From Clostridiales bacterium (GTDB lineage: Bacteria > Bacillota > Clostridia > Christensenellales > CAG-917): a stretch of 16,307 nucleotides of DNA. The DNA lies in contig JAAZIO010000086.1 in assembly GCA_012800805.1 (NCBI GenBank), positions 1 to 16,307 of the forward strand, given 5' to 3'. Below the pieces are notes generated by a model, which was not told the origin of the DNA, made no database searches, and saw only the letters and a program-made list of their open reading frames with translations. Positions 1 to 14,242 of the stretch are shown here, piece by piece (position 1 is the stretch's first letter; every line of letters begins with the position of its first letter). The translations under genes were made by a program, and so were the position numbers.

Positions 1-867
1 GTGGTATTCACCCCGCTTGTAGAGTATCTTATCAAAGCTTTGGGAGACCCCGCAGTTGTCGGAAGTGGCGAGCTTGCTTCGTTCCTTGTCCTTGGCATTA
101 TCTTCTTGGTTATATGTGTTGTTTGCGGTTTTTTCATAAACGAGCCCCCGAAAGATTACAAAGTGGAAGGCTGGGAGCCGAAACCGTCTCCTTCGATTTC
201 AAGACAAAGCTTATCGCCGAAAGAAATGCTCAAAACCTATCAGTTCTATCTTATTACGGTCGCTTTTCTGCTTGCCTGCATGGGCGGCCTTATGATGATA
301 AATTTCGCAAAACCCATAGCGATAGCAAAGGGGATGGCGCAGGCTGCGACAATAGGCGTTATGCTGATTTCACTTTTCAACTCAATCGGCAGGCTTGTTT
401 GGGGCTGGATTTCGGATAAGCTAGGAAGAAAACTTACCATTATAATCCTTCTTTGCGGAACAGCGGTGCTGTCGCTGTTTGTAAACCTCGCAACAGGATA
501 CTTCATCTTTATTCTGATAGGACTTATCGGTTTCTTCTACGGCGGATTCTTAAGCACTTTCCCCTCGCTTACCGCAGACTATTTCGGCCCGAAATACATG
601 GCGTTCAACTACGGTATAGTGCTTTTGGGCTTTGGCGTGGGCGCGGTGGTCTCGTCGTTTATTGCAGGTCACTATAAAAACGTCGCGGCGCAAGACATCA
701 ACCTTATGTTCCCTGCGTTTATCATAGCGGCGGCTGCTGCTGCGGCGGCGCTTATACTGATTGCGGTGTTAAAGCCGCTTAAAAAGAGCGAAGAGATTGT
801 TGCCGAAAACGCCGTAGCCGCTGTTGAGGGCGCGGAGGAAGATAAAAAAGAAGAGGAGAGAGAATAA
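1..867 (+). CDS. OFA-type MFS transporter, C-terminal part (5' end outside window)
   Basis: This is a membrane carrier of the major facilitator superfamily, most like the oxalate/formate antiporter (OFA) group. The visible 288 residues hold about seven hydrophobic segments: one near residues 25-46, then after a charged loop (about 47-75) six more to about residue 258. The loop motif GWISDKLGRK (about 135-144) is the MFS motif-A repeat between helices 8 and 9, and the FYGG...PSLTADYFG stretch (about 179-196) is typical of OFA proteins. The C-terminus is a charged Glu/Lys tail. OFA proteins usually have about 400-430 residues and 12 helices, so roughly the first third lies upstream; the GTG at base 1 is just the window edge, not a start I would defend. 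Substrate is unknown; a small carboxylate is a family-based guess. A perfect hairpin terminator follows the stop. Confidence 0.85.
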   Translation: MVFTPLVEYLIKALGDPAVVGSGELASFLVLGIIFLVICVVCGFFINEPPKDYKVEGWEPKPSPSISRQSLSPKEMLKTYQFYLITVAFLLACMGGLMMINFAKPIAIAKGMAQAATIGVMLISLFNSIGRLVWGWISDKLGRKLTIIILLCGTAVLSLFVNLATGYFIFILIGLIGFFYGGFLSTFPSLTADYFGPKYMAFNYGIVLLGFGVGAVVSSFIAGHYKNVAAQDINLMFPAFIIAAAAAAAALILIAVLKPLKKSEEIVAENAVAAVEGAEEDKKEEERE

Positions 868-900
868 ACTAAAATAAAACTAATAAAGGCGTAAAACTAA

Positions 901-936
901 AAAAGGCGTAAAGTTAACTTTACGCCTTTTAATTTT
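901..936 (+). terminator. Perfect-palindrome terminator after the MFS gene
   Basis: Bases 901-930 form a loopless perfect palindrome (AAAAGGCGTAAAGTT and its exact complement) ending in TTTT and followed by AT-rich DNA. A partial direct copy of the left arm (AAAGGCGTAAAACTAA) lies just before it at about 885-900. The symmetric A and T flanks would let it work in both directions. Confidence 0.8.
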
Positions 937-1039
937 ATTTCCGTTTGGATAAGAATAAAAGCATTTTTTGAACAAGCATTAAATAATAACAGGAAAGTAA
1001 AGAGTAAGCTTTTAAGATAGGTAAGCATCTAAAGCTAAA

Positions 1040-1056
1040 TATAATAAGTTATTATA
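1040..1056. repeat. 17-bp palindrome TATAATAAGTTATTATA, copy 1
   Basis: This is an inverted repeat of two 8-base arms around a single G. An identical copy lies at 1381-1397, a one-mismatch copy at 1195-1211, and a shorter version near 1237-1251. All four lie in the gene-free spacer between two convergent genes. Confidence 0.75.
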
Positions 1057-1229
1057 AGCGGTTAATGCTATATATTATAAAGCAAAAAGTAAGCTTTAAA
1101 AGCATATCGCAAGCGGCTTTTAAGCTGGTTATAAGATAAGCTAATGTAAAAGATAAGCGGCTAAAGCTTGTAAAAAATAAGCGTTAAAGTTAAATATAAT
1201 AAGTTTTTATAATGGCTAAGCAGTTATCA
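1055..1229. repeat. Long imperfect direct repeat, copy 1 (about 175 bp)
   Basis: This block begins with TAAGCGGTTAATGCTA, runs through AAAAGTAAGCTTTAAAA, an AAGCGG box and TAAGCTAATGTAAAAGATAAGCGG, and ends with TAATGGCTAAGCAGTTATCA. The same landmarks recur in the same order at 1274-1415. Copy 1 is longer, mainly because of an additional roughly 23-base stretch around 1171-1194. All frames carry frequent stops, so it is not coding. The sequence is dominated by TAAGC/GCTTA words. Function is unknown. Confidence 0.75.
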
Positions 1230-1273
1230 GACCAGATATAAGTTATTATATAGCGTAAGCAGTAAATTAAAGG

Positions 1274-1415
1274 TAAGCGGTTAATGCTAAATATTAAAAA
1301 GTAAGCTTTAAAACTATATCACAAGCGGTTAATAAGCTTTTAATATAAGCTAATGTAAAAGATAAGCGGTTAATGCTTGATATAATAAGTTATTATAATG
1401 GCTAAGCAGTTATCA
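1274..1415. repeat. Long imperfect direct repeat, copy 2 (about 142 bp)
   Basis: This is the second copy of the block at 1055-1229, separated from it by about 44 bases. It keeps the TAAGCGGTTAATGCTA start, the AAAAGTAAGCTTTAAAA word, TATAAGCTAATGTAAAAG, and the shared end TAATGGCTAAGCAGTTATCA. It contains an exact copy of the 17-bp palindrome (1381-1397). The 15-16 base box TAAGCGGTTAATGCT occurs twice inside (1274, 1363), with related boxes at 1022, 1055 and 1154. The whole 931-1471 interval holds no credible gene. Confidence 0.75.
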
Positions 1416-1462
1416 AAAAAATAATTTGTTAAATAATATAGTATATAATTTAACTATATAAT

Positions 1463-1491
1463 AATAAAACAAAACCGCAAGAGTGCGGTTT
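1463..1491 (-). terminator. Terminator of the small membrane protein gene
   Basis: An 8-bp stem (AAACCGCA at 1472-1479 with TGCGGTTT at 1484-1491) around the loop AGAG overlaps the stop codon of the minus-strand gene. Read on the minus strand it is followed by TTGTTTTATTATT. It faces the terminator at 901-936 across the repeat spacer. Confidence 0.8.
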
Positions 1492-1780
1492 AATTTTTGT
1501 CTTTTTTCTCTTTAAGTTTTTTTAACTCTGCCTCCAGAATTTTTATTTGCTCGTCTATCGGCGGCTCTTCATCTTTAAGTTTTTTCCTTATCTTTTCGTC
1601 GGTCACCATGCTGATTATAAGCTGGAATAAAAGCAGGACGGCAAGAGATATAAAAGTCGCCGCTACGCCGATTTTTGCGGTTCTAGGAACAGCGACAAAC
1701 CACAAAACAATCATGCATACCGCAGCCGCGCAAGACAGCGCAAGCGTTATAAAAAATAGCGTATCGCGGACTTTTTTCAT
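1490..1780 (-). CDS. Small two-span membrane protein with charged C-terminal helix
   Basis: I do not recognise a family. The 96-residue product has a short basic N-terminus, two hydrophobic segments (about residues 8-28 and 38-60), then a strongly charged tail (about 63-96, rich in Lys, Glu and Leu) that should form an amphipathic helix or coiled coil. The tail is expected on the cytoplasmic side given two spans and a basic N-terminus. A near-consensus promoter lies directly upstream, its -10 box only 6 bases from the ATG, and I see no Shine-Dalgarno sequence, so the message is probably leaderless. A terminator overlaps the stop codon, so this is a monocistronic unit. It is divergent from the sigma factor gene, which may hint at a shared context but proves nothing. 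Confidence 0.7.
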   Translation of the reverse strand: MKKVRDTLFFITLALSCAAAVCMIVLWFVAVPRTAKIGVAATFISLAVLLLFQLIISMVTDEKIRKKLKDEEPPIDEQIKILEAELKKLKEKKDKN

Positions 1781-1786
1781 AATAAA

Positions 1787-1815
1787 ATTCTATCTTAAAT
1801 TACAGGGCGTGTCAA
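1787..1815 (-). promoter_or_regulatory. Sigma-A-type promoter for the 1780- gene
   Basis: Read on the minus strand: TTGACA (1815-1810), a 17-base spacer, TAGAAT (1792-1787). The expected start site, 7 bases past the -10 box, coincides with the A of the ATG at 1780. Confidence 0.8.
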
Positions 1816-1834
1816 TGTTATTATTCTGCCCGTC

Positions 1835-1863
1835 TTTACAAGGTTTATAATAAAGGATATTAT
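1835..1863 (+). promoter_or_regulatory. Sigma-A-type promoter for the sigma factor gene
   Basis: TTTACA (1835-1840), a 17-base spacer and TATTAT (1858-1863) predict a start near 1870 and a leader of about 28 bases. Its -35 box lies 19 bases from the -35 box of the divergent promoter at 1787-1815. Confidence 0.6.
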
Positions 1864-1897
1864 ATTAAAAAACAATCATAATAAAATATCGGTGTAA

Positions 1898-2437
1898 ATG
1901 GACAAAAGCGAACTCGATTATTACATGACGCTTTTAAGGCGCGGAGATGAAACGGCGTTTGAGATTATCTACGAAAAAACAAAACGCGGCCTCTTTGCGT
2001 TCATTTTGTCCTATTGCAAAAACTACCACACAGCGGAAGACCTAATGCAATCCACTTATATAAAGCTAAGGTCGTCAATAGACAGCTATAAACCAGGCTC
2101 CAACGCGGGGGCATGGCTGTTTACCATAGCTAAAAACCTCACAATCAATGAGGTGAAAAAAAACAGGAGGGAAGTGTCGTCCGATTTCAGCGAAAAGGAA
2201 AACCAATTCGGCGAATACAATATGGACGAAAATCTGACCAGCCCTCTTTTGAAAACCATGCGGGAGAATCTGAACGAAACCGAGCTTAGAATTGTCCTGC
2301 TCTATCTTGTATCGGGCTTTAAACACCGCGAGATAGCCCAGATGCTTGAAAAACCGCTGGGAACCGTGCTTTGGTCATACAGAAACGCTATCGGCAAAAT
2401 CAAAAAGGCTTTGGAGGCGGAAGAGAATGAAAATTAG
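1898..2437 (+). CDS. RNA polymerase sigma factor, sigma-70/ECF type
   Basis: This is a small alternative sigma factor that would redirect RNA polymerase to a specific promoter set. The 179-residue length fits two-domain ECF sigma factors. Region 2 spans about residues 15-90 (DETAFEIIYEKTKRGLFAFI, then HTAEDLMQSTYIKL, then GAWLFTIAKNLTINEVKKNRR, the usual core-binding and -10 recognition helices). Region 4 spans about 125-175, with a helix-turn-helix ending KHREIAQMLEKPLGTVLWSY that should contact the -35 element. The ATG has only a weak ribosome binding site upstream. The gene overlaps the next one by 11 bases, the classic arrangement of an ECF sigma factor with its membrane-bound inhibitor. 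The specific ECF group and signal cannot be told from sequence alone. Confidence 0.88.
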   Translation: MDKSELDYYMTLLRRGDETAFEIIYEKTKRGLFAFILSYCKNYHTAEDLMQSTYIKLRSSIDSYKPGSNAGAWLFTIAKNLTINEVKKNRREVSSDFSEKENQFGEYNMDENLTSPLLKTMRENLNETELRIVLLYLVSGFKHREIAQMLEKPLGTVLWSYRNAIGKIKKALEAEENEN

Positions 2438-2720
2438 AGAACTCAAAAAAAAGCTAAACCACGAAACTGAACAAATCGTGCCAGATGTTCTCCACAAAGT
2501 TAAAAAGGTGCCCATAAACGGCATGCTTAACGCCGAAACCCCCACGCAAATTTTCAGGCGCAAGCTGCTTGTTCTTTTGATTGTCCCCATGATTATCGCC
2601 TTTATAAGCCTAATCGTTGTCGTAACCGCCTTTGCAGTAAGACAAAAACCCGCATCCGATGCCAAACCGAATAATTATATAAAATCCTTTACTTGTTTGG
2701 AGACATCAAATAAAACATAA
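2427..2720 (+). CDS. Short single-span membrane protein, candidate anti-sigma factor
   Basis: The start is the ATG at 2427, preceded by GGAGGCGGAAGAG inside the sigma gene; reading begins 11 bases before the sigma stop codon. The 97-residue product has a charged cytoplasmic part (about 1-47, including TEQIVPDVLHKVKKVPI, which resembles the sigma-binding ends of clostridial anti-sigma proteins), one hydrophobic span (about 48-71), and only about 26 residues outside. Position, overlap and topology suggest it holds the sigma factor at the membrane. I see no zinc-binding HxxxCxxC motif, so it is not a ZAS-type inhibitor. The near absence of an external sensor domain is odd: related proteins usually carry a large one. 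The stop codon abuts the tRNA terminator hairpin. The role is inferred from context. Confidence 0.65.
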   Translation: MKIRELKKKLNHETEQIVPDVLHKVKKVPINGMLNAETPTQIFRRKLLVLLIVPMIIAFISLIVVVTAFAVRQKPASDAKPNNYIKSFTCLETSNKT

Positions 2721-2743
2721 AAGCCGCGATTTCTCGCGGCTTT
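2708..2743 (-). terminator. Terminator hairpin of tRNA-Ser, abutting the anti-sigma gene stop
   Basis: The stem AAAGCCGCG (2720-2728) pairs with CGCGGCTTT (2735-2743) around a 6-base loop. On the minus strand it is followed by a T-rich run (TTTTATGTTTTA), fitting termination of the tRNA transcript. On the plus strand the T-run is only three bases, so it is a poorer terminator for the sigma operon. It begins at the last base of the stop codon at 2720 and ends at the encoded CCA of the tRNA. Confidence 0.75.
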
Positions 2744-2833
2744 GGCGGAGAAGCCGGGATTTGAACCCGGGCTACGCTTTCACGTACTACTCCCTTAGCA
2801 GGGGAGCCCCTTCGGCCTCTTGGGTACTTCTCC
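2743..2833 (-). tRNA. tRNA-Ser (anticodon GCU)
   Basis: On the minus strand the acceptor arms GGAGAAG and CTTCTCC pair, discriminator G is followed by an encoded CCA (2745-2743), and the T arm is CCGGG-TTCAAAT-CCCGG. The anticodon arm is CTCCC-CTGCTAA-GGGAG, giving anticodon GCT at 2799-2797. A long class II variable arm with a TACG/CGTA stem is as expected for serine. It should read AGC and AGU codons. It has its own promoter and terminator. Confidence 0.97.
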
Positions 2834-2853
2834 AATATATAAAGAACGTTAGT

Positions 2854-2882
2854 ATAATAGCAGTTTTGTAAGCTTTAGTCAA
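2854..2882 (-). promoter_or_regulatory. Strong promoter for tRNA-Ser
   Basis: On the minus strand: TTGACT (2882-2877), a 17-base spacer and TATTAT (2859-2854). The predicted start near 2847 gives a roughly 13-base 5' leader before the mature tRNA. Confidence 0.85.
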
Positions 2883-3444
2883 GTGGTTGCGTTAAGTTGA
2901 ACGGCCGGCTGTGAATGGTATTTTTTATAATAAACCGCTCATATAACGCCTTTTTATCTTTAAAAAATAAAGCCAAATAAAAGACCTTGTTTTAAATGGT
3001 TTGACTTAATTAAAAATTTTATTCTAAGATTTATGGCGAATTTAATGTGGAATTAAAGATTATAAAAATTGACGCTTGGCGGCGGTAATTTTGGTTTATT
3101 ATATTTTCGCCGCTTTATTTTAAGCCTTATATGTTTACCGTTAAATTGTTTATAGCTTTTAGTAAAGAGCAAAGACAATTAATCATACGCATATCTTGCG
3201 GCTGTGATAGTTTCTTTTGAAGTTTCAAAGTTTAAATTTTGTTATGGCGTTATTTATAATTTCTCAGATTTACACGCCATTTTTTTGTTTTAACCGTAAA
3301 CAGTAATAGAATTTAGTATTGAATGATAGGCGAAATCATACAAAAAATTTTATAGGCAAATAAACAGTTATTATATTTAATATCCAGCGAACAGGCTTAT
3401 ATGTTAATTCATAAAAGCGGCAAAATGGTAAAGATAATTTTTTG
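2883..3444. other. Gene-free AT-rich stretch with two long-loop inverted repeats
   Basis: I find no convincing protein gene in this stretch of about 560 bases. Two hairpin candidates stand out: GCGGCG (3079-3084) with CGCCGC (3108-3113), and ATGGCGT (3244-3250) with ACGCCAT (3274-3280), each with a 23-base AT-rich loop. The second is followed by TTTTTTGTTTT, which would make it a plus-strand terminator, although no gene ends there. A TATAAT at 2926-2931 lacks a matching -35 box. Confidence 0.5.
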
Positions 3445-3472
3445 TTGTGTCATAGTAAAAATCGGGTAAAAT
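3445..3472 (+). promoter_or_regulatory. Possible promoter of the lipoprotein gene
   Basis: TTGTGT (3445-3450), a 16-base spacer and TAAAAT (3467-3472) would start transcription near 3479, two bases before the preferred ATG at 3481. The boxes are imperfect, so this is tentative. Confidence 0.35.
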
Positions 3473-3480
3473 ATAAGTGT

Positions 3481-5058
3481 ATGAAAGGTGTCGGATTTTA
3501 TAAAGCAATAAAGACCGTTGCGGTTGCTCTTGCTCTTGCGGCTGTTTTGGCGGCGTTTTTCGGCTGCGTCAAAGATGCGGAACCGCCTTTGTCTCCTACT
3601 ATTAACGATACGATAAAGTGGCCGCTAAGCCTTTTGCCCGACGAGTTTTTACCTCTTAAAGGCTTTAACGGGGCGGAGGAAGCATATTCCTCGGGCGTAA
3701 AAAGATACACCATGTTTTACGCCCAGGACGTTTCGGATAAGTTTGCCGCCGCGCTGGAGGCTCTTGAAAAAGCGGGATATCAAAGAAACGGCAACACTTT
3801 CACAAACGGCGGGCAAACTTATACCGTTACGCACAGCACGGTGGGCGAAAGGCAGTCGGTTACGGTATCGTTCCCTTATGACTATTACCTGGGCGCGCTC
3901 CCTGAGGAAATGGCAAGCCTTCCTCTTTTTAACGGCAGGCTGAAAGAAGAGCCCAAATCTTATAACAGCGGCGAATACCAAAGCGCCTCCAATAACTCCG
4001 TTTGGGTGACGGGCCATTACTTTAACGTCAGCGAAGACGAGGCGATGGTTTATTCCAAATTCATTGAAATCAACGGCTACACCGCGGGCGTTGAGGCCGG
4101 CGGAGTAAAGCTTTATATAATTTTAGATCAAAACAACTCGGGGATAAACGGCGAAATATTCGTCACTTATACAATGAGCGGCATACCAAACGAGTTTAAA
4201 TACAACAGAATGGTTGCGGCGCTTGAAAATTTCGACTATGAGCTGAAGACAAACCCTCTGCCCGAGCTGGATAAGGCATACTATTCCTGGGTAAACTGGG
4301 GTCTTGACCTTTTCCACGCAAGCGGAATGCTCCCCAATCCCGAAGAGATATATCCAAACGCCAAAGTCGCGGGCTATGACTTTTACCGCAACGAGAACGC
4401 AGGGGGCAACGGCAGCATTTATTGCTTTAACGTAACCATTGACGGAATGACAAAGCTTGAAACAAAGCTTTATTTGGAAAGTTTAATGGAGCTGGGCTGG
4501 GAAGTGGACGAGCTGTCGGGGCTTGGTTATAAAACCGTGGACGAAGCGTTTGACATACAAAACAACGCCTCCGCCACCATCGAGCTTAAGTGGAGACATC
4601 TTTATGCCGTCTGCGAGTGGACTTTTGCCGAAAACGGCGGCAGATTCACCATAAGCGCGGAGCGTTCGCTGAAAGACTTCTCCGACGAGCTGCTTTTAAA
4701 GTGCGGCAACTATGAGATTGAATACACCTTCGACGGGCAAACCTACACGGCAACCGCAAACGATTATAATTATGTAAGGTCGGAAAACGGAAAAGACACT
4801 GTTGAGCGTTGTCCCATATTTGAAACGCATGGCTTTGGCGACGCTTTCTCCGCCCACATTTACGCAAGAGGAGGCCCCCAAGGGCATCTTTTTACCAAAA
4901 CGGGCGAGGAGAATTATCTTGGCAGGACGGTGGAGATATATATGTTTGCCGAAAACGACAACATTTATCTGTATTATGTCGATAAAGAGCTTGACATTAC
5001 GCTTAAACATGTGGACAATCAAATTGTGAGGTTTGAAGTCAAAAAACTGGATATTTAG
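3481..5058 (+). CDS. Large secreted lipoprotein with degenerate internal modules
   Basis: I do not recognise a family. I prefer the ATG at 3481 over an upstream in-frame TTG at 3442, because it places a classic lipoprotein signal at the N-terminus: basic start, hydrophobic core (about residues 12-27) and a lipobox ending FFG-C29. The mature 497-residue protein should be lipid-anchored outside the cytoplasmic membrane. Three stretches look alike: about 50-132, 135-235 and 285-385. Each has an LP-containing lead, an aromatic strand leading into a helix ending near Gly-Tyr/Trp (YAQDVSDKF...KAGY, FNVSEDEAM...INGY, FNVTIDGMT...ELGW), then strands. The tail (about 405-525) is Tyr-rich and probably beta-strand. 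No catalytic motif is visible, so binding or an envelope role is a guess. No strong Shine-Dalgarno precedes the start, and no terminator follows. Confidence 0.75.
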   Translation: MKGVGFYKAIKTVAVALALAAVLAAFFGCVKDAEPPLSPTINDTIKWPLSLLPDEFLPLKGFNGAEEAYSSGVKRYTMFYAQDVSDKFAAALEALEKAGYQRNGNTFTNGGQTYTVTHSTVGERQSVTVSFPYDYYLGALPEEMASLPLFNGRLKEEPKSYNSGEYQSASNNSVWVTGHYFNVSEDEAMVYSKFIEINGYTAGVEAGGVKLYIILDQNNSGINGEIFVTYTMSGIPNEFKYNRMVAALENFDYELKTNPLPELDKAYYSWVNWGLDLFHASGMLPNPEEIYPNAKVAGYDFYRNENAGGNGSIYCFNVTIDGMTKLETKLYLESLMELGWEVDELSGLGYKTVDEAFDIQNNASATIELKWRHLYAVCEWTFAENGGRFTISAERSLKDFSDELLLKCGNYEIEYTFDGQTYTATANDYNYVRSENGKDTVERCPIFETHGFGDAFSAHIYARGGPQGHLFTKTGEENYLGRTVEIYMFAENDNIYLYYVDKELDITLKHVDNQIVRFEVKKLDI

Positions 5059-11656: not shown

Positions 11657-13438
11657 ATGGAAAGACTTACTTCTTCGGAACTTAGACAAGCATATCTCAA
11701 CTTTTTCAAAGAGAGAGGACATGCCGTTATACCGACATCCTCACTCATTCCCGAAAACGACCCCACGGTTCTTTTTACAACCGCAGGAATGCATCCCCTC
11801 GTGCCTTATCTTCTCGGCGAAAAGCACCCCGCGGGCACAAGGCTTACGGATGTGCAGATTTGCGTGCGCACAGGCGACATCGACGAAGTAGGCGACGCGT
11901 TTCACCTTACCTTCTTTGAAATGCTGGGCAACTGGTCGCTTGGCGATTATTTTAAAAAGGAAGCGATATCTTGGAGTTACGAGTTTTTGACAAAGGTCTT
12001 GGGCATACCCGTTGAAAAACTTGCGGTGAGCGTTTTTGCGGGCGATGAGGACTGCCCCAAAGATGAGGAGAGCGCGCGCATTTGGCAGGAGATGGGCATT
12101 CCCAAAGACAAGATTTTCTTCCTCCCCAAGAAAAACAACTGGTGGGGGCCTGCCGGCATGACCGGCCCCTGCGGACCCGACACCGAGATGTTTATCGACA
12201 CGGGCAAAGAAAAATGCGGCGAGGGCTGCTCTCCCGCTTGCGACTGCGGCAAATACCTTGAAATCTGGAACGATGTATTCATGGAATACTTCAAAAATCA
12301 GGATGGAATGTTTGAGCCGCTCAAACAGCGCAACGTGGATACGGGAATGGGTCTTGAAAGAACCATTTGCATACTTAACGGATACAATTCCGTATACGAA
12401 ACCGACCTTTTCGACTTTGCGATAAAAAAGCTTGAGGAGCTTTCGGGCAGAAAGTACTCGGAAGGCGGCGACGTTACGCTTGCAATGAGGATAGTTGCTG
12501 ACCATGTCCGCACCGCCACATTTATTATAGGCGATGTAAAGGGCGTGACGCCCTCCAACGTCGACCAGGGCTATGTGCTTAGAAGACTTATCCGCCGCGC
12601 CCTGCGTTATCTTAAAAAGCTTGAGCTTGACGGCTCGGCCATGCAAGAAATCGCAAAGCTCTATATAGAAAAATACGGCGATGTATACCCGTTTATAAAA
12701 GAGAACGGAGAAAAGATTATATCCGAGCTTGAGCTTGAGGCGGAAAGGTTCTCAAAAACCTTGGAGCAGGGCCTTAAAGAGCTTGAGAAAGTTCTTACTC
12801 ACATTCAGGGCAAGGTGCTTCCCGGAAAGACCGCGTTCAGGCTTTACGATACCTTCGGTTTCCCGCTTGAAATCACTAAGGAGCTTTGCGCCGAGCAGGG
12901 CTTTAGCGTGGACGAGGAGGGCTATCACGAGGCGTTCAGAATTCACCAGGAAAAGTCAAAGATGGGCGCCGAGCAAAAGTTCAAGGGCGGCCTTGCCGAC
13001 AACGCGGCGCAAACCGCTAGGCTGCATTCCGCGACGCATCTTCTCAACGCCGCTTTAAAGAAAGTTCTTAACGATAACAACATCAACCAAAAGGGCAGCA
13101 ACATAACCGCCGAGCGCCTTCGCTTTGACTTTAATTTCGACAGACCTTTGACGCCCGAAGAGATTAAGGCGGTTGAGGACTTCGTCAACGCCGAAATCAA
13201 AAAGGGCGGCGAGATTATATGCGAGGAGATGACGGTAGACGAAGCTCTTTCAAAAGGCGCTGTAGGCGTGTTCACTTCCAAATACGGCGAAAAAGTAAAG
13301 GTTTATACAATCGGCTGCTCCAAGGAGATTTGCGGCGGCCCGCACGCGGCAAACCTTTCTGAGCTCGGCACTTTCAAAATAGTTAAAGAGCAGAGCTCCT
13401 CGGCGGGCGTAAGAAGGATTAGGGCAATCCTTGAATAA
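11657..13438 (+). CDS. alaS: Short-form alanyl-tRNA synthetase (no C-terminal domain, no editing beta-barrel)
   Basis: This enzyme charges tRNA-Ala with alanine in the cytoplasm. The class II catalytic domain is intact: motif 1 region (TAGMHPLVPYLLG, 42-54), motif 2 (CVRTGDIDEVGD...TFFEMLGNWSLGDYF, 69-99, shorter than in the usual bacterial enzyme), and motif 3 (GMGLERT). The helical tRNA-recognition domain follows. Editing metal ligands are present: H457 and H461 in HSATH, C559 and H563 in CGGPH. At 593 residues it lacks the DHHA1/C-Ala region of the usual roughly 870-residue enzyme, and the beta-barrel normally preceding HxxxH seems missing, as only about 40 residues separate GFSVDEEGY from HSATH. 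A Cys cluster (C187, C191, C195, C197) suggests an extra zinc site. Similar short enzymes are known in Patescibacteria and some Clostridia. AAAGGAG precedes the ATG. It is the third gene of a four-gene operon. Confidence 0.9.
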   Translation: MERLTSSELRQAYLNFFKERGHAVIPTSSLIPENDPTVLFTTAGMHPLVPYLLGEKHPAGTRLTDVQICVRTGDIDEVGDAFHLTFFEMLGNWSLGDYFKKEAISWSYEFLTKVLGIPVEKLAVSVFAGDEDCPKDEESARIWQEMGIPKDKIFFLPKKNNWWGPAGMTGPCGPDTEMFIDTGKEKCGEGCSPACDCGKYLEIWNDVFMEYFKNQDGMFEPLKQRNVDTGMGLERTICILNGYNSVYETDLFDFAIKKLEELSGRKYSEGGDVTLAMRIVADHVRTATFIIGDVKGVTPSNVDQGYVLRRLIRRALRYLKKLELDGSAMQEIAKLYIEKYGDVYPFIKENGEKIISELELEAERFSKTLEQGLKELEKVLTHIQGKVLPGKTAFRLYDTFGFPLEITKELCAEQGFSVDEEGYHEAFRIHQEKSKMGAEQKFKGGLADNAAQTARLHSATHLLNAALKKVLNDNNINQKGSNITAERLRFDFNFDRPLTPEEIKAVEDFVNAEIKKGGEIICEEMTVDEALSKGAVGVFTSKYGEKVKVYTIGCSKEICGGPHAANLSELGTFKIVKEQSSSAGVRRIRAILE

Positions 13439-13447
13439 GGAGGCATT

Positions 13448-14242
13448 ATGAAAGTCGATTCACATTCGCATTCCAAATTCTCGCCTGACGGCCATGCCGA
13501 AATCGCCGAAATGGCGGCAAAAGCAAAAGAGCTCGGGGCCGGTTATCTTGCCATAACCGACCACTGCGACAAAGACGCTCTTCAGCCGGGCAACGAAGTT
13601 CCCGTGCCGTGGCGCCAGCTTGACATCGACGCCTATTATTCGGACTATAAAATGGTCAAAGCGGGTGAAAGAGAGCTGTATCTTGCTTTCGGAATAGAGG
13701 CGGGATACGACCACAGAGCGGAAAAGCTTTACAGGGAAATAATAGACAAATACCCCTTTGATGTCGTAATAAATTCCGTTCATTTCGTAGAGGGCTGGGA
13801 TGTTTACTTCCCGTATTTCTTTGAGGGCAAGACAAAGGATGTAGCGTATAGGATGTACTTTGAAAAGGTTTACGAAAGTCTGTTCGCCGATTACCCTTAC
13901 GACATAGTGGGCCATATCGGATACTGCGTGAGAAATGCTCCTTATCCCGACCCCGTTATACATTACGAGGACTATTCCGACCTTCTTGAGCCGATTCTGA
14001 GAACAATTATAAGGCTCGGTAAAACTTTGGAAGTAAACACACATCATGACATGTGTCCAAACATTGAAATACTGAAAAAATACTACGAGTTCGGCGGAAG
14101 AAAGATTTCGTTCGGCTCGGACGCTCACAGGGGCGATGTGCTTAAAGATTACGATAAAGTCAGCAAGACGCTAAAGGAAATCGGTTTTACGCACTATACC
14201 TACTTTAAGCAGCATATCGAGGAATACGAACCCATTGAATAA
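13448..14242 (+). CDS. PHP-family phosphatase, histidinol-phosphatase (HisK/HisJ)-like
   Basis: This is a trinuclear metal phosphoesterase of the PHP superfamily. The 264-residue length fits the HisK-type histidinol phosphatases that hydrolyse L-histidinol phosphate in histidine synthesis. The metal ligands appear in the usual order: H6 and H8 (DSHSHSKFS), D38-H39 (ITDHCD), E83 (GIEAGYD), H111 (NSVHFVEG), H155 (GHIGYC), and D224 with H226 (FGSDAH). Translation starts 9 bases after the alaS stop with a strong AAGGAGG site (13437-13443), so it is the last gene of the operon; a terminator follows at once. No other his gene is in view, so a different phosphate ester as substrate is possible. Confidence 0.85.
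   Translation: MKVDSHSHSKFSPDGHAEIAEMAAKAKELGAGYLAITDHCDKDALQPGNEVPVPWRQLDIDAYYSDYKMVKAGERELYLAFGIEAGYDHRAEKLYREIIDKYPFDVVINSVHFVEGWDVYFPYFFEGKTKDVAYRMYFEKVYESLFADYPYDIVGHIGYCVRNAPYPDPVIHYEDYSDLLEPILRTIIRLGKTLEVNTHHDMCPNIEILKKYYEFGGRKISFGSDAHRGDVLKDYDKVSKTLKEIGFTHYTYFKQHIEEYEPIE

Follow-up and report, generated by a model that had tools for sequence, protein, structure and literature searches.

A short alanyl-tRNA synthetase with an editing core and without beta-barrel and C-Ala domains in a Clostridiales bacterium

Judged by its sequence, the alaS gene of a Clostridiales bacterium encodes a complete alanyl-tRNA synthetase (AlaRS) of the short NF002436/PRK01584 type, in which a short linker joins the catalytic and tRNA-recognition parts to an editing core, and the beta-barrel and C-Ala domains are missing. 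The enzyme belongs to an already catalogued and widespread family, of which the gene described here is one ordinary member. The short form is ordinary for its order and is neither truncated, rare nor recently transferred. We propose that this protein, probably the only AlaRS of its genome, charges tRNA-Ala as a monomer and edits its own products in cis, using a core that arose by deletion and was later exchanged between genes; as a whole, this proposal seems to us likely.

Gene and domain layout

The window, i.e. the whole stretch of 16,307 nucleotides that was analyzed, contains an open reading frame running from ATG to TAA with AAAGGAG just 5´ of the start. Its length of 593 residues, instead of ~870, bears out the original prediction. 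In a profile search, NF002436 (PRK01584) matched residues 5–593 on positions 2–593 of 595 with 916 bits (cut-off 529), and this match above the curated cut-off, covering nearly the whole profile, identifies the product as a family member at the sequence level. The short type was defined in the present analysis, its definition being absent from the text of the family model, as an AlaRS of ~595 aa that ends at the editing core and has no barrel; the window protein has this form. Its parts are as follows:

11657..13438, forward strand: alaS, short-form alanyl-tRNA synthetase, 593 aa; match to the NF002436 profile and to Pfam PF01411 and PF07973
11657..12967, forward strand: class II catalytic domain and tRNA-recognition helices, residues 1–437, the parts expected of an AlaRS
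12968..13024, forward strand: linker, residues 438–456, 19 residues replacing the beta-barrel in the alignment; pLDDT below 50 at residues 436–448 of the AlphaFold model
12983..13000, forward strand: KGGLAD, residues 443–448, possible remnant of the GGQxGD glycine-rich loop, dependent on the alignment and on structure comparison with AlaX-M
13001..13435, forward strand: AlaX-S-like editing core, residues 449–593
13025..13039, forward strand: HSATH with ligands H457 and H461; both H in 176/176 short sequences and in 42/42 other sequences with a whole core
13100..13108, forward strand: N482-I483-T484, characteristic of the short form; among 176 short sequences N occurs in 163, I in 166 and T in 162, and among 42 others in 0, 1 and 5, respectively
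13331..13345, forward strand: CGGPH with ligands C559 and H563 and the short-form proline P562; C, P and H in 176/176 short sequences, P in 0/42 others

The HxxxH and CxxxH zinc-ligand motifs of the AlaX/AlaRS editing core are present, with H457, H461, C559 and H563 at the positions previously named for them. Two domains of the four-domain AlaRS prototype are absent. In an 83-row alignment, the gap from residue 437 to H457 holds 19 residues here, compared with 117–138 in 20 rows labelled long and 108–113 in four archaeal rows. The tail after the editing core is 2 residues followed by the stop, compared with 172–183 in 19/20 long rows and none in the row L144, and no DHHA1 match is listed for the alaS protein; the statement that nothing follows the core, and that C-Ala is missing, thus stands. 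The AlphaFold model (mean pLDDT 87.6) leads directly from a helix at 420–446 to a helix at 451–470 with no strands between 446 and 451. An intact barrel in a predicted structure had been named as a possible refutation, and the model has none. The same gaps are seen when the full-length model TIGR00344 is run on short enzymes of Spirochaetota, where it matches ~1–432 and 552–692 of its 847 positions and skips those of the barrel and C-Ala.

PF01411 finds a single place in the genome (72.85% complete), and the suggested check for a second, full-length alaS accordingly found none there. A protein of 593 aa that is 99% identical to the alaS product (P0001) comes from a contig of 355,612 bases and may be from the same organism. 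Elsewhere in the window are a tRNA gene (2746–2833, reverse strand; Rfam RF00005, 54.8 bits) and a gene for a YabP-family protein of 91 aa (PF07873; 9327–9602, reverse strand). Downstream of alaS, a PHP-domain protein is encoded at 13448–14242 on the forward strand and matches the HisJ-family phosphatase model TIGR01856 with 112 bits (cut-off 90).

Conserved residues and a proposal for editing in cis

The rows used to examine conservation were chosen by similarity, length and closed ends and are a non-random sample. The 183 short rows represent 176 distinct sequences, and three copies of the window protein and nine cut or interrupted short rows were left out of this count. H457, H461, C559, P562 and H563 are invariant in 176/176 distinct short sequences. 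The proline of CxGPH is found in 0/42 longer bacterial and archaeal AlaRS, which carry T, S, C, I or L instead, and N482, I483, T484, Y550 and K577 are further marker residues of the short form. Seven of the nine omitted short rows keep the core motif, all as CxGPH; L117 and L127 stop short of the motif, the former being cut and the latter having a frame that breaks off. On the long side, eight bacterial rows and one archaeal row were omitted, all with CGGTH. L212, a frame of 683 aa, was left out because the core ligands C and H lie outside its coverage, and L211, long by length, was reassigned to the short type by its anatomy. The latter (G537, 338–2494, reverse strand) is 719 aa long, its catalytic domain being interrupted by an insert of ~120 aa.

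The linker from residue 437 to H457 has a length of 19 residues in 159/176 distinct short sequences. GGL occurs within it in 150 of the 176, and GGQ in 42/43 other rows. The two triplets are aligned with each other in one alignment (Q in 43/44 others) and are unaligned in a larger one, such that only the former places K443-GGLAD-448 over the GGQxGD loop of long enzymes. A structure aligner run against AlaX-M (2e1b) gives as its first pair model residue 443 and residue 41, at which, going by the printed sequence, GGGQ begins. The linker of one Patescibacteria short enzyme (L152 and L284, same genome) contains GGGQGD. KGGLAD may be what is left of the glycine-rich loop; model confidence is low at this place, some short enzymes lack the motif, and the likeness is suggestive only. 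The original prediction had both the barrel and its SGGQxGD signature lost, which holds for the barrel and perhaps only in part for the signature.

The simplest reading would be that a tethered AlaX-S-like core edits in cis, with residues particular to the short form compensating for what is missing. tRNA-Ala would be charged by recognition of G3:U70 through the usual helical bundle. Position 3:70 is G:U in 19/19 tRNA-Ala genes that were read, that of the same genome included, with a search pattern that fixed G3 and not U70; the scan covered 23/30 loci, 4 of the 23 having no tRNA-Ala or a cut one. The E. coli fragment 1–700, which lacks C-Ala, is described as monomeric with wild-type-like charging, and 1–461 as the minimal charging fragment (PMC4649089), so charging requires only parts present here. 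The enzyme would be a monomer because the dimerizing C-Ala is missing. The 19-residue linker, nearly fixed in length, could keep the core beside the acceptor end, where it would remove Ser, and perhaps Gly, from tRNA-Ala, and P562, N482-I483-T484, Y550 and perhaps the KGGLAD linker may partly replace the barrel and C-Ala. We count the structure model and its PDB matches in support of this proposal; the low confidence of the model in the linker and the alignment-dependence of its likeness to GGQ count against it.

A review (PMC3158927) and a recent paper (PMC10485164) portray AlaRS as a conserved multi-domain enzyme in which C-Ala brings the editing domain to the mischarged tRNA, and removal of C-Ala from the editing domain is stated to reduce editing ~1000-fold (PMC3158927). 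An enzyme without C-Ala might therefore edit poorly. Accordingly, the core could have been retained in a weak state, the Ser-for-Ala error being tolerated or dealt with by other quality control; in favour of this, a Tupanvirus AlaRS without an editing domain supports growth of yeast (PMC10036535). We consider this unlikely, given that the four ligands are kept in every distinct short sequence across several phyla, which points to selection on the chemistry, and we retain editing by the tethered core as the preferred reading.

A large family of natural enzymes that retain their editing ligands and have neither barrel nor C-Ala offers a direct test of the purpose of those domains, for which the short AlaRS, as a small single-chain enzyme, is well suited. 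How it edits without them is a testable question raised by the ~1000-fold loss reported elsewhere (PMC3158927). According to the same review, the editing domain of every AlaRS has C-Ala attached to it (PMC3158927), and the short family contradicts this by its anatomy. Our search of the open-licence literature found no paper on a bacterial AlaRS with an editing core and without barrel and C-Ala, which is a weak negative. Tentatively, and with rather less than even confidence, we suggest that the short AlaRS may constitute a distinct editing architecture of many phyla: a core of single origin, with the proline by the zinc ligands, the 19-residue linker and a possible glycine-loop remnant, that would deliver mischarged tRNA to itself without C-Ala, this core and its catalytic partner moving as modules between AlaRS genes, among them long ones with a catalytic domain of the short type. 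If true, this would qualify the textbook view that C-Ala is needed by all AlaRS for editing.

Descent of the core and the search for partners

Trees were built from 83 rows, 59 of them short, with archaeal AlaRS as outgroup for both the catalytic part and the editing core; the editing-core tree has 144 columns, few for 83 rows. The 59 short editing cores are monophyletic (SH-aLRT 88), and the sister of their clade (97) is L144, an enzyme with a barrel and without C-Ala. C-Ala may therefore have been lost before the barrel. L144 itself (G406, Patescibacteria; 1462–3534, forward strand) encodes an AlaRS of 691 aa. In the catalytic tree, by comparison with the core tree, the short rows are not monophyletic, and a constraint holding them together was rejected (AU p = 8e-5). 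In that tree, the short rows L042 and L191 are placed with long AlaRS from families f49 and f62, a grouping rejected by the editing core (AU p = 1e-8); the groups for the AU tests were named after the trees were seen. Pairwise identities show the same conflict. For L191, from the same family as the window, identity in the catalytic part is 81% with L042 and 52% with the window enzyme, and in the core 50% with L042 and 74% with the window enzyme; between the long L048 and L042 it is 60% for the catalytic part and 37% for the core. A single core clade without a single catalytic clade points to exchange at the domain junction, which probably gives the best explanation of the tree conflict and the identities. 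L043, L046, L048 and L050 (f62, f49) are probable chimeras of a catalytic part from the short lineage and an editing half from the long one. We suggest that the core probably derives from a long bacterial AlaRS by deletion, and then spread and was swapped between AlaRS genes at this junction.

The order of events might be the reverse, with fusion of a catalytic AlaRS and an AlaX-S-like core coming first and the barrel and C-Ala being added later. When rooted on archaeal AlaRS, the catalytic tree has its root among short rows, which counts against deletion unless it is a long-branch artefact, and in one published scheme AlaRS acquired both editing and C-Ala through fusion with AlaXp (PMC10485164). 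The archaeal branch in the catalytic tree is, however, very long (2.68), and in the core tree, likewise rooted on archaeal sequences, every short row lies nested within the long bacterial enzymes, L144 being their sister. The core is also 41–46% identical to four long bacterial AlaRS, against 24–25% to AlaX-S. A primitive short form thus appears improbable, and deletion from a long enzyme is the reading that we follow.

It had also been suggested that the enzyme depends on a free partner, i.e. that a protein such as AlaX provides the barrel or C-Ala function in trans. A SAD-domain search found no complete free AlaX in the genome or in 25 relatives of the same family (at least 90% complete). 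SAD matches in the family were of AlaRS size and ThrRS size only (ThrRS being assigned by size), the genome itself having the AlaRS match alone; as exceptions, G011 has one more match, G022 one fewer, and in G029 the second is a 314-aa fragment at a contig end. No small C-Ala-like frame was found in the 26 family genomes, the own genome included, where DHHA1 occurs only in open frames of at least 320 aa, two per genome and four in G007, with RecJ and NrnA labels given by size only. At the level of the family, a free AlaX or C-Ala partner is rejected, and editing in cis is therefore likely. Absence from the genome itself would alone be weak evidence, given its completeness of 72.85%. Free AlaX-like frames do exist in 8/60 genomes of the order, all in other families (seven of 376–442 aa, one of 284 aa), and in several DPANN genomes that carry a short AlaRS there are open frames of ~195–257 aa that match the barrel end of PF01411; these count against our proposal. 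Among 25 named genomes of other groups, however, three have a free frame of AlaX size (that of G267 below the family cut-off), G270 has a candidate frame of 296 aa, and the remaining 21 have only SAD matches of AlaRS or ThrRS size. A partner in trans would on this evidence be very improbable.

Distribution and comparison with known enzymes

The short form extends through the order. Among 60 genomes, 55 have an apparently complete short AlaRS, four have a fragmentary one (G002, G015, G017, G059) and one has none (G040, 51% completeness). PF01411 matched in 59/60, the own genome included, with no AlaRS match beyond position 459 of 552; the barrel end of the profile was matched only by free frames of 411–433 aa in G037, G046 and G057. 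Some genomes of the order (e.g. G037, G047, G049) have frames of 680–735 aa that PF01411 matches as two separate segments. Overlong frames in G020 and G008 of the order, and in G294 of another phylum, were rejected as C-terminal extensions, the extra frame lying upstream on the N-terminal side. The long frame of G461 was likewise rejected, as it crosses a scaffold gap (a run of X) into a separate protein, presumably of FtsA type.

In a sample of the class, 21/196 genomes, the own genome included, have a full-span short match, namely all 10 of the same order and 11 in families f46, f58, f61, f67 and f76; G101 has a long gene plus a short fragment. These counts and those that follow are manual tallies from the listed rows. 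Of 100 genomes from the phylum of Treponema berlinense (Spirochaetota), 21 have the short form, 72 the long form and 7 a fragmentary match or none. At least 85/96 Patescibacteria genomes (the phylum of a Parcubacteria genome) have an apparently complete short AlaRS, and 10 a fragmentary or split one among the matches listed; G406 has the barrel and no C-Ala. In 80 genomes from the DPANN phylum of a Woesearchaeota genome, 33 enzymes are short, 46 are long over the barrel (frames of ~700–900 aa) and one genome is matchless. One genome of this phylum, G550, has two short AlaRS matches on one contig (C1:268260–269615 and C1:753613–754926). Named carriers, among the best 80 of 597 and with some MAG titles possibly misbinned, include Treponema, Borreliella bissettiae, Uhrbacteria, Kuenenbacteria, Peregrinibacteria, Woesearchaeota, Pacearchaeota and Lentisphaeria. 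Short enzymes had been expected mainly from Patescibacteria and some Clostridia; they are seen in these two groups, in part of Spirochaetota and in the DPANN phylum.

The presence of the short form in nearly all sampled Patescibacteria would make them a conceivable donor for a recent horizontal transfer into this genome, an option left by the original prediction. The order-wide presence of the short form, and the nearest rows in the catalytic tree, which are relatives from the same family and order, speak against it, and we find recent transfer highly improbable; an older transfer into the ancestor of the order may have occurred. Finally, the draft state of the genome (208 contigs) could raise concern that an assembly error or frameshift conceals a C-terminal half, which is practically excluded, and in practice refuted, by the identical architecture in 55/60 genomes of the order, the 2–4 residues past the core in 113/142 short rows and the next gene beginning 9 bases after the alaS stop. 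Overall, the interpretation given in the original prediction is partly supported.

Among known systems, the closest is NF002436 (PRK01584, an alanine--tRNA ligase equivalog of 595 positions), which matches over the full length with the same architecture and no substantial difference; its description is silent on the missing domains. The short AlaRS of Borreliella and Treponema have the same layout, 19-residue linker and CGGPH, and two from this group are 53% (L126) and 56% (L098) identical to the window enzyme by BLASTP; they differ in belonging to another phylum and to separate tree branches. A Borrelia AlaRS has long been listed at ~594 aa. Compared with full-length bacterial AlaRS (TIGR00344; E. 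coli), the window enzyme is 43% identical to that of E. coli in the catalytic and tRNA-recognition parts and 43% in the editing core, and differs in the missing barrel and C-Ala, in P562 in place of T and in N482-I483-T484. The P. horikoshii proteins 1v7o and 1wnu (AlaXp-I), which we take to be of class AlaX-S, are free-standing and 24–25% identical to the core.

Split short AlaRS were seen in four Patescibacteria genomes, with the pieces on different contigs and each closed by stops. In three of these, a catalytic piece covers ~1–264 and a C-terminal piece ~274–590 of the profile (L295 and L299 in G435, L294 and L298 in G467, L296 and L300 in G417); in G453, there are three pieces covering 1–263, 272–381 and 392–590 (L297, L301, L302, L304). 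The C-terminal pieces retain CGGPH. This arrangement recalls N. equitans, the AlaRS of which is described as encoded by split genes (PMC10036535; PMC6349945). The mini-AlaRS of Tupanvirus is, according to its description, likewise without C-Ala and functional, but differs from the short enzymes in that the editing domain is missing too and in its kinship to the AlaRS of the amoeba host (PMC10036535).
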